Shown: in pieces, positions 11,329 to 51,665 of the stretch
Position numbering within the stretch: position 1 is the first letter of the stretch
How the letters are laid out: each line of letters opens with the position of its first letter
NCBI GenBank assembly: GCA_027489355.1
Contig: JAIXZY010000056.1
Location: 1 to 57,440, forward strand
Direction: 5' to 3'
Source of the DNA: Paracoccaceae bacterium
GTDB taxonomy: Bacteria > Pseudomonadota > Alphaproteobacteria > Rhodobacterales > Rhodobacteraceae
Length of the DNA: 57,440 nt
Made by a program: the position numbers and the translations under genes
The notes under the pieces: model-generated
Database searches by the model: none
Seen by the model: only the letters and a program-made list of their open reading frames with translations
Told to the model about the DNA's origin: nothing

Positions 11329-12561
11329 TCAGACTTTCATCTGCACGCCCAGGTGCTTGGCGACGGTGAAGATGTCCTTGTCGCCGCGGCCGCACATGTT
11401 CATCACGATGATCTTGTCCTTTGGCAGCGTCGGCGCGAGCTTCATCACCTGGGCCAGGGCATGGCTCGGCTCCAGCGCAGGTATGATTCCCTCCAGCTTG
11501 CAGCACAGCTGGAACGCCTCCAGCGCCTCGGCATCGGTGATGCTGACATATTCGGCGCGGCCCACGTCGTGCAGCCAGGCGTGTTCCGGACCGATCCCCG
11601 GATAATCCAGACCGGCCGAGATCGAGAAGCCCTCCAGGATCTGCCCATCCGCATCCTGCAGAAGGTAAGTCCGGTTGCCATGCAGAACCCCCGGACGTCC
11701 GCCGGTGAGCGAGGCGCAATGCTCCATCCGGTCGTCGACGCCCTTGCCACCGGCCTCGACGCCCACGATCCGCACCGACTTGTCGTCAAGGAACGGGTAG
11801 AAGAGGCCCATCGCGTTCGACCCACCACCGATGGCGGCGACAACCACGTCGGGCAGGCGGCCTTCGCCTTCCTGCTCGGCCAGCTGCCAGCGGACCTCCT
11901 TGCCGATGATCGACTGGAAGTCGCGGACCATCGCCGGATAGGGGTGCGGCCCCGCCACGGTGCCAATGCAGTAGAAGGTGTCGCGGACGTTGGTCACCCA
12001 GTCCCGCAGCGCGTCGTTCATCGCGTCCTTCAGAGTGCCGCGACCGGAGGTCACCGGGATCACCTCGGCGCCCAAAAGCTTCATGCGGAACACGTTCGGC
12101 GCCTGGCGTTCCACGTCATGCGCGCCCATGTAGACCACGCATTTTAGGCCGAATTTGGCGCAGACCGTCGCCGTCGCCACGCCATGCTGGCCAGCGCCGG
12201 TTTCCGCGATGATCCGGGTCTTGCCCATCCGCCGCGCCAGGATGATCTGGCCCAGCACGTTGTTGATCTTGTGTGCGCCCGTGTGGTTCAGCTCGTCGCG
12301 CTTCATGTAGACCTTGGCACCGCCCAGGTGTTCGGTCAGCCGCGGGGCGAAGTACAGGGGCGAGGGGCGACCGACGTAGTGCTTCCACAGGTCGTCCATC
12401 TCGGCCCAGAAGCTGGGGTCGGTCTTGGCGTGGTTGTAACGCTCTTCCAGCTCCAGGATCAGCGGCATCAGGGTCTCAGAGACGAAGCGCCCGCCAAAGA
12501 GGCCGAAGCGCCCCGCCTCGTCCGGTCCCGTCATGAAGCTGTTCAACCCGTCCTCGGCCAT
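11329..12561 (-). CDS. trpB: Tryptophan synthase beta chain
   Basis: 410 aa, full length. It catalyses PLP-dependent condensation of indole with serine, in complex with TrpA (not in this window). The PLP lysine is K98 in [11 protein letters not shown], and the phosphate-binding loop GGGSNA is at residues 245-250. [28 protein letters not shown] and [13 protein letters not shown] are typical. The start ATG at 12561 gives the usual [16 protein letters not shown]-terminus. It follows trpF after 122 bp that contain a three-hairpin element, so part of the upstream transcription may stop there. A good terminator follows the gene. The separation of trpA from trpFB is common in alphaproteobacteria. 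Confidence 0.98.
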
Positions 12562-12613: not shown

Positions 12614-12683
12614 AAGCCGGAGTTTTCGAAAACTCCGGATCGGAGCCTTCGAAGGCTCCGTCACGATTTCTTCGAAGAAATCG
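12614..12683 (-). repeat. Three-hairpin TTCGAA element, copy 1 (after trpF)
   Basis: Read on the minus strand directly after the trpF TGA, three palindromes follow one another: GATTTCTTCGAAGAAATC, GGAGCCTTCGAAGGCTCC and GGAGTTTTCGAAAACTCC. Each is a perfect 18-bp palindrome centred on TTCGAA, and the last is followed by GGCTTTTCC. A second, less perfect copy in the same order and orientation to its gene follows maeB (51419-51482). The third hairpin plus T-run could terminate transcription between trpF and trpB. Confidence 0.8.
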
Positions 12684-13349
12684 TCACCGCAGGATCGGAA
12701 CGCCGCCCTTCACCCCCTGCGCCGCCTCGACAAAGGCCGCGATCCGCGCGGGGTCTTTCACCCCCGGCGCGCTTTCCACGCCCGAGGACACGTCCACCTG
12801 CCGCGCGCCCGTCAGCCGCACCGCCTGGGCCACGTTGTCGGGCGTCAGCCCTCCGGCGAGCATCCAGGGCCGCAGCCACTTGCGCCCGACGAGAAGCCGC
12901 CAGTCGAAGGCCAGCCCATTGCCCCCCGGCAGGTCCGCCCCCTTGGGCGGCTTGGCGTCGATCAGCAGCTGGTCGGCAACCAGGCTCATGTCAATCAGCC
13001 CCGCCAGGTCCTCCTCGCCCGCGACGCCAATCGCCTTCATCACCGGCAGGCCGTAGCGCGCCTTCACCTCGGCCACGCGGTCGGGCGGCTCATGGCCGTG
13101 AAGCTGCAGCATGTCCAACGGCACCGTTTCGACGATGCGATCCAGCGTCGCGTCGTCGGCATTCACCGTCAGCGCCACCTTGCACAGCCCCTCGGGCGCG
13201 CCGAGCGCCAGGTCGCGCGCGGCCTCCACCGTCAGGTGGCGCGGGCTTTTCGGGAAGAAGACGAAACCGGCATAAGCCGCCCCAGACCCCGCGACGGCCG
13301 CCACGTCGGCCGCCGTGCGCAGGCCGCAGATCTTGACGCGGACGTCCAT
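12684..13349 (-). CDS. trpF: Phosphoribosylanthranilate isomerase
   Basis: 221 aa, normal length. It converts N-(5-phosphoribosyl)anthranilate to the deoxyribulose form in tryptophan synthesis. Family motifs are [12 protein letters not shown] at the start (catalytic Cys in KICG), [20 protein letters not shown] and, near the end, [19 protein letters not shown] (catalytic Asp in VDVSSG). The ATG at 13349 lies one base past the lapA TGA (TGAgATG), so translation is coupled. The stop is followed at once by the three-hairpin TTCGAA element, and trpB comes next. Confidence 0.97.
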
Positions 13350-49114: not shown

Positions 49115-51403
<2,289 letters not shown>

Positions 51404-51418
51404 GTCGGGGGGCGCTTT

Positions 51419-51482
51419 CTTCGAAGCAATCGTGCCGGAGCGTTCAACGGCTCCGGTGCGGAGTTTCCGAAAACTCCGCACT
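51419..51482 (+). repeat. Three-hairpin TTCGAA element, copy 2 (after maeB)
   Basis: Starting about 15 bases after the maeB stop: TTTCTTCGAAGcAATC, GGAGCGTTCAACGGCTCC and GCGGAGTTTCCGAAAACTCCGC, in the same order and orientation to the gene as copy 1 after trpF. The palindromes carry single mismatches. The last hairpin is followed by ACTTCTTTT and can act as a terminator. Confidence 0.75.
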
Positions 51483-51484
51483 TC

Positions 51485-51578
51485 TTTTGCAAAACGCGCG
51501 CTTCCGTTCGAAACGACTTTGCAGCGAAGTGCAAGTTTGCAAAATTTCGCCCCCTGCCATCCCCAGTTCTGCAAATAA
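51485..51578 (+). promoter_or_regulatory. TTTGCAAA-type site cluster upstream of prpE
   Basis: TTTTGCAAAA (51485-51494), TTTGCA (51518-51523), GTGCAA (51529-51534), TTTGCAAA (51536-51543) and CTGCAAAT near 51570. ScfR/PccR regulators of propionyl-CoA metabolism in Rhodobacter bind TTTGCAAA repeats. Confidence 0.5.
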
Positions 51579-51665
51579 GTCGCACTCCGCTACCGGTAAC
51601 ACCGTTGCGCGGACCGCATCCCATCGCATACGAACCCCTCAGTGCATCAGCGGGGGGAGATCGCG

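Follow-up and report, generated by a model that had tools for sequence, protein, structure and literature searches.

Among the repeats we found described, the kind closest to the present one is that of rhizobia. There, RIMEs, Sm-repeats and the AB and C motifs are intergenic elements of palindromic or mosaic type, present in dozens of copies per genome and of unknown function (PMC2573895). REP elements have been described from S. meliloti (PMC2873474). REPs carry a GT(A/G)G head and have an associated PF01797 transposase (PMC2817692), and those located within 15 nt of a stop codon stall ribosomes (PMC12306157). The puf intercistronic stem-loop of R. capsulatus is reported to be an mRNA decay terminator (PMC5927463). 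Template switching is described as a means both to create and to keep hairpins (PMC8794818; see also PMC8604942 for template switching as a mutational cause). In one survey of stem-loop families, Rhodobacter is absent from the main text (PMC2267715), and the accessible parts of PMC3997798 and PMC7866481 hold nothing further.

We describe here a composite element of three hairpins which occurs twice in a 57,440-nucleotide stretch of DNA from a Paracoccaceae bacterium (contig JAIXZY010000056.1; hereafter the window). The element seems to represent a new family of small repeat. The members of this family are interspersed palindromic repeats, non-autonomous and about 68 nt long, which insert as a unit, have a conserved structure and persist mostly immediately behind stop codons.

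The two copies in the window

Copy 1 (12617-12684, minus strand) lies directly 3' of trpF, which encodes phosphoribosylanthranilate isomerase (12684..13349, minus strand; Pfam PF00697, E 4e-44). Hairpin 1 (12663..12684, minus strand) is a perfect 22-nt palindrome whose first base is also the last base of the trpF TGA stop codon (12684-12686), hairpin 2 (12641..12660, minus strand) is a perfect 20-nt palindrome, and hairpin 3 (12617..12638, minus strand), again perfect and of 22 nt, is followed by CTTTTCCC. These are the three longest even palindromes in the window. A gene for a 410-aa PLP-dependent enzyme (11329..12561, minus strand; PF00291, E 5e-42) starts 122 nt past the trpF stop on the same strand, and we take it to be trpB from its place and its N-terminus.

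Copy 2 (51412-51479, plus strand) lies behind a gene for a 762-aa maeB-type malic enzyme with a phosphate acetyltransferase domain (49115..51403, plus strand, stop codon 51401-51403; PF00390, PF03949 and PF01515). Its hairpins 1 (51412..51433) and 2 (51436..51455) are imperfect, and hairpin 3 (51458..51479) is followed by ACTTCTTTTGC, all on the plus strand. In the stems of this copy, 21 of the 26 pairs are Watson-Crick and one is G-U. The first-pass annotation had described the same order of hairpins in the same orientation to the gene at both loci, with copy 1 beginning at the trpF TGA and perfect, and copy 2 slightly eroded; all of this agrees with our reading. It had placed the start of copy 2 about 15 bases behind the maeB stop (51419). 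The element in fact begins 8 nt after the stop, 7 nt earlier than claimed. Palindromes resembling TTTGCAAA are located 3' of copy 2 (51485-51580 of the window) and recur behind maeB in many congeners.

Copy number and distribution

A blastn search with copy 1 returned 16 near-complete copies in the 4.2-Mb genome, both window copies included (E 1e-34 to 4e-12), so the two window copies are not a product of chance. These 16 copies, aligned with the three-helix structure, served to train a covariance model, a search which the first-pass annotation had proposed for this genome and its relatives. In its own genome the model recovered 17 full copies among the best 150 of 2885 candidates scored, that is the 16 training copies and one more. 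Partial copies are also present and several consist of hairpins 1 and 3 only.

Among 394 genomes of the same family, 72 have a match at E <= 1e-3, a figure that includes many single weak matches, and 13 at E <= 1e-8 (13 candidates scored per genome). Within the genus, 24 of 30 congeners have a match at E <= 1e-8; the number of match rows per genome, counted over both strands, ranges from 0 to 78. In a class-wide sample only 2 of 385 genomes match at E <= 1e-5; both belong to this family and one is the genome of origin. The 80 loci listed come, among others, from Tabrizicola, Rhodobacter, Xinfangfangia, Pseudogemmobacter, Frigidibacter, Fuscovulum and Pseudorhodobacter. The repeat has multiplied separately in several Rhodobacteraceae lineages.

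Neither the plasmid nor the phage collection yielded a match to copy 1, and carriage of the repeat in either is not supported. Rfam at its gathering score contains no family for either copy, a tRNA being the sole match in the window. In open-licence papers we found no named family for a three-hairpin repeat and none in which the letters of the palindromes occur. The earlier statement that no named family has this three-part layout therefore stands with respect to Rfam and this literature, mosaics of palindromes as such being a known kind (RIMEs, and the AB and C motifs of rhizobia).

Structure and its conservation

For comparison we assembled a catalogue of 157 elements. Its rows are the best 150 from one set of 171 matches and the best 150 from another of 156, which leaves aside the 27 weakest, second-strand readings among them. 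Part of its loci were found, among the matches listed, through a pattern for hairpins 1 and 2, and the sample leans towards well-kept copies. The usual unit (118 of 157 elements) is 68 nt long and comprises hairpins of 9, 8 and 9 bp with tetraloops and 2-nt spacers. Exactly three hairpins appear in the fold of 141 of the 157.

In the alignment of the 16 copies, the three-helix structure leaves 94.9% of cells paired, and slid registers at most 59%. Cells changed on both sides number 24 against 9.1 in shuffles; pairs with a double change are less telling, with 5 against 3.4 expected and 31 of 500 shuffles reaching 5. Among the most variable pairs are 52-63 and the outermost ones of hairpins 1 and 3, their two sides changing jointly. 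Full copies in this genome differ at 4-5 of 68 nt in the closest pairs and at a median of 12, and have no flank in common. Their edges are sharp; when the 12-nt flanks on both sides of 15 copies are compared, at most 10 agree on a base at any one position. With 17 full copies at unrelated loci, these edges place the element among the interspersed palindromic repeats of the MITE-like, non-autonomous type.

Orthologous copies form 27 groups, with the same relative orientation in 63 of 63 links. In 30 orthologous pairs, stem letters differ at 7% and loop or spacer letters at 38% (183/480), and there are 26 double changes from one Watson-Crick pair to another. Without two pairs that include a copy with an indel (L231), which inflates mismatches, the remaining 28 show 25 double changes, 13 changes with G-U and 24 mismatches. 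Flanks of orthologous copies diverge by 12-25%; over this range stems are kept and loops drift. Some orthologous copies have decayed to 17 to 22 of 26 pairs. The three-hairpin structure is thus conserved, be it as RNA or as DNA.

Self-complementarity is found in 124 of 354 tetraloops, and in 7 of 84 loop comparisons TTGA stands against its exact reverse complement TCAA. Among the 118 elements of 68 nt, the commonest loops of hairpin 2 are TCAA (42) and TTGA (38), themselves mutually reverse complementary; after TCGA, hairpin 1 favors TCAA and hairpin 3 favors TTGA. Two loci (L120 and L122) carry perfect TTCGAA-centered palindromes with other stems (e.g. CAAATTTCTTCGAAGAAATTTG) beside a second palindrome, perhaps representing a sister family. 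In one genus (that of G280, loci L140-L147) the three-hairpin layout is often built from other stems (GGATTTCG, GGACCC, GAAATC), so the layout outlives the sequence.

Were the mRNA strand under selection, G-U oppositions would be expected to outnumber A-C ones on it. G-U oppositions number 38 and A-C oppositions 27 overall, with 9 and 10 in tandem elements in forward orientation and 5 and 3 in reversed ones. In the catalogue there is no excess of G-U over A-C on the transcribed strand and no signal either way; since the ratio does not follow the transcribed strand, this test gives selection on RNA no support. Pairing of the cutC, trpF and maeB copies is better where the genome has more matches (Spearman 0.62 for 20 copies; 0.66 for 14 genomes, p 0.01; the genome of origin counts 32 matches), a correlation which is partly circular because the match count itself falls where copies decay. 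Together, the two observations leave room for a cause at the DNA level or in mutation, for example template switching.

Position relative to genes

Gene context was read from our own codon-model calls, made without annotation. Of the 157 elements, 65 lie between convergent genes, 45 in tandem gaps in forward and 28 in reversed orientation, 5 in divergent gaps and 2 within an ORF; the 12 unclassified elements are close to a locus edge or have no called neighbor and were dropped from the context counts. The median distance to the nearest stop is 6 nt, and among the 138 elements in gaps with a gene end it is at most 20 nt in 116 and at most 15 nt in 110. In tandem gaps, the median distance of the element is 9 nt to the stop and 57 nt to the following start, the stop side being the nearer in 60 of 73. 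The genome of origin taken alone, which is free of pattern bias, gives the same picture, with 21 of 24 elements within 15 nt of a stop. Among gaps of at least 70 nt, those with an element are enriched in convergent ones (65/144 against 25/334 without an element, p 2e-20) and depleted in divergent ones (6/144 against 114/334, p 3e-14).

The fixed orientation to the gene, which the first-pass annotation had noted, is common to both window copies and does not extend to the catalogue, where the bias is weak (forward in 45 of 73 tandem cases against 28 reversed, p = 0.06). Persisting copies thus lie mostly immediately behind stops. Both orientations occur, and the gap is very often a convergent one. 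That only two copies might exist, or that copies might be placed at random relative to genes, had been given as grounds for abandoning the idea of a family; neither applies, since the composite repeat is found genome-wide and is tied to stop codons.

Individual loci

At trpF and maeB, presence or absence was scored by visual inspection of the sequences. At trpF, 28 loci of the genus were read. A trpB-type gene follows within 400 nt in 15 of these, and the element or a remnant is present in 10 of the 15; the remnants comprise one hairpin 3 only, one with two hairpins and one badly decayed. The 5 short junctions without the element show it to be dispensable at trpF-trpB. At the remaining trpF loci other DNA or another gene comes next, or the locus ends.

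The element is present behind maeB in 8 of 28 loci of the genus, one of them with two hairpins. Six congeners (L334, L335, L343, L350, L351 and L358) have a different, longer and imperfect hairpin directly after the maeB stop, resembling CTCCTCGTTCGACTTCGTC, with a fold of -40 kcal/mol for one case. An exact-pattern search of the loci recovered this hairpin from L334 and, once, from L258; the address may therefore be shared by another family of palindromic repeats.

Both ORF elements of the catalogue lie at one site, in cutC (PF03932, here split by the insert). The unit is present there in frame in 9 of the 27 genomes of the genus scored; the 18 others have a short linker instead, of 7 residues in 13. 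These are filled and empty orthologous sites of the unit. No target-site duplication can be read at them, the empty sites having diverged too far. Pairing was scored in eight of the nine cutC copies and is complete in 5 and partly lost in the other 3 (17, 21 and 23 of 26 pairs); hairpin 3 of the cutC copies shows compensated changes. In a predicted CutC structure, the insert would lie between a helix and a strand, with pLDDT below 50 for most of residues 118-137, and the rest of the insert-bearing fold is mostly well modeled. In a cutC tree the insert-bearing proteins are not one group (6 changes, at least 2 of them forced, with unsettled bootstrap). A single clean gain of the insert is therefore not supported, and repeated insertion, loss and gene exchange are indistinguishable at this site.

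Possible roles and origin

The best explanation, in which we would place about half of our confidence, is that gene 3' ends are where this non-autonomous palindromic repeat settles, and that its hairpins form a barrier there in both directions, for the mRNA 3' end or for the terminating ribosome. In the transcript, the three hairpins would stop 3'-5' exonucleases, so that the 3' end which Rho-type termination leaves on the mRNA would be both fixed and protected. Elements no more than about 15 nt behind a stop may, in addition, slow ribosomes as they terminate. A barrier working in both directions fits the placement of the repeats, the lack of U-tracts and the lack of a fixed orientation. The puf stem-loop and the REPs would be precedents by likeness of action and not by descent. 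Several observations are at odds with the barrier. The G-U/A-C strand test lends no support to selection on the mRNA strand, pairing upkeep follows the genome-wide match count, which a purely local role does not predict, and template switching could keep the arms complementary without selection. In addition, some orthologous copies decay, 5 of 15 trpF-trpB junctions lack the element, and in the cutC copy within an ORF a role at gene ends is meaningless.

Template-switch repair is a serious rival explanation for the pairing pattern. It forms part of a broader account, which we consider possible, if tentative, as one joint claim: the repeat is selfish only, its hairpins are needed for its own copying as single-stranded or cruciform DNA by a hypothetical enzyme, its placement behind stops is the least harmful insertion, and template-switch repair keeps its arms complementary. 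Template switching is described as capable of creating and keeping hairpins (PMC8794818). The range of 0 to 78 match rows within one genus, the patchy occupancy of orthologous loci (maeB 8/28, short trpF-trpB junctions 10/15, cutC 9/27), the insertion inside an ORF, the absence of a G-U excess on the transcribed strand and the poorer pairing in copy-poor genomes all point this way. So do the 7 of 84 reverse-complementary loops, as spacer inversion gives them, although single C-to-T and G-to-A steps from TCGA would also suffice. However, harmless insertion predicts an even fill of convergent gaps and 3' flanks, and the tandem elements hug the stop at their median of 9 nt. Nor does it sit easily with orthologous copies which keep their stems and not their loops over 12-25% flank divergence.

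Translation control in the manner of E. coli REPs, in which a hairpin no more than some 15 nt behind the stop would stall the terminating ribosome and lower the output of the upstream gene, strikes us as rather unlikely. Such spacing is commoner here than among the REPs themselves, 110 of 138 elements lying within 15 nt of a stop against 446 of 4,072 predicted E. coli REPs (PMC12306157), but three hairpins exceed what such control needs, and membership in the REPs fails with the absence of RAYT. The Y1 transposase domain PF01797 passes the Pfam cut-off in 0 of 36 genomes, with two weak sub-threshold matches (G409 and G415), and mobilization of the RAYT/IS200 type is not supported. Nor was a GTAG/GTGG-type head seen beside the palindrome in the 12-nt flanks of 15 copies of this genome.

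A more speculative and quite improbable proposal is that the three-hairpin unit is the substrate of a novel system acting in trans. This factor, an enzyme or an RNA-binding protein distinct from RAYT, would place the unit behind stops and keep its stems perfect. Its loss in a lineage would lead to joint decay of all copies there, and the repeat would combine mobility with the function of a 3'-end module that works genome-wide and in both directions.

It is very unlikely that the repeats are bidirectional intrinsic transcription terminators. Strong hairpins between convergent genes would suit such a function, and the T-run after hairpin 3 noted by the first-pass annotation is present, if short, in both window copies. 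It is not general: of 155 catalogued elements, 2, which are the window copies, have TTTT no more than 12 nt behind hairpin 3, and none (0 of 155) has it at that distance behind hairpin 1 when the opposite strand is read. The repeats as a family are therefore not U-tract terminators, and intrinsic termination is ruled out as the family function despite T-richer tails in a loose scan. In that scan for a hairpin plus T, gene ends with an element pass more often than those without, both in tandem (17/65 against 28/274, p 0.002) and in convergent arrangement (22/121 against 20/183, p 0.09). In a scan for terminator-like structures, copy 2 passes (1 found against 0.6 in shuffles) but copy 1 itself fails. 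The trpF locus may also terminate, since the CTTTTCC tail behind its copy recurs in 6 further congeners, at loci outside the catalogue.

A DNA-level site between genes, whether for gyrase, for a nucleoid protein or as a cruciform relieving supercoiling where transcripts collide, is the least probable reading: the repeat is palindromic, occurs in either orientation and is enriched in convergent gaps, but self-complementarity is missing from 230 of 354 tetraloops, so the center of a dyad site lacks conservation, the hairpin centers lie by layout 23 nt apart, which is not a whole number of helical turns, and 73 of 138 elements are in tandem gaps.

Should the preferred role at gene ends be correct, many genes in a group of Rhodobacteraceae would owe their 3' ends to one mobile unit, and the filled and empty orthologous sites would be a natural experiment on the effect of a 3' hairpin. 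Should the selfish account alone hold, the element would still be a palindromic repeat free of RAYT, and a comparison, within one genus, of species rich in copies with species that have none could serve to trace its copying enzyme. The in-frame insert of the unit in CutC illustrates how a repeat may turn into protein.

Comparison with known systems

The puf stem-loop of Rhodobacter capsulatus is, like the repeat described here, an intergenic hairpin in a relative; the likeness concerns the proposed action only. The puf structure is a single locus and the three-hairpin repeat is interspersed. Rickettsia palindromic elements (RPE) are palindromic repeats which can insert in frame in genes, as the present unit does at cutC. 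They differ in belonging to another bacterial order, and in-frame insertion here concerns one gene (cutC; 2 of 157 elements) against mainly gene-end positions.

REP, BIME and REPIN sequences are likewise short extragenic palindromes, part of them near stops, multiplied within genomes. In contrast to the REP/RAYT system, the three-hairpin repeat shows no GT(A/G)G head in the 15 copies compared and is accompanied by no PF01797 protein above the cut-off in the 36 genomes. The nearest kind described remains that of the rhizobial RIMEs, Sm-repeats and AB and C motifs, which are alphaproteobacterial intergenic repeats and mosaics of palindromes as well. The fixed order of three hairpins and the tight stop-codon address are absent from the accessible descriptions of RIMEs and the AB and C motifs, the comparison being one of descriptions only. 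The class-wide search of 385 genomes with the three-hairpin model matched only two, both in the family in which the repeat was found.
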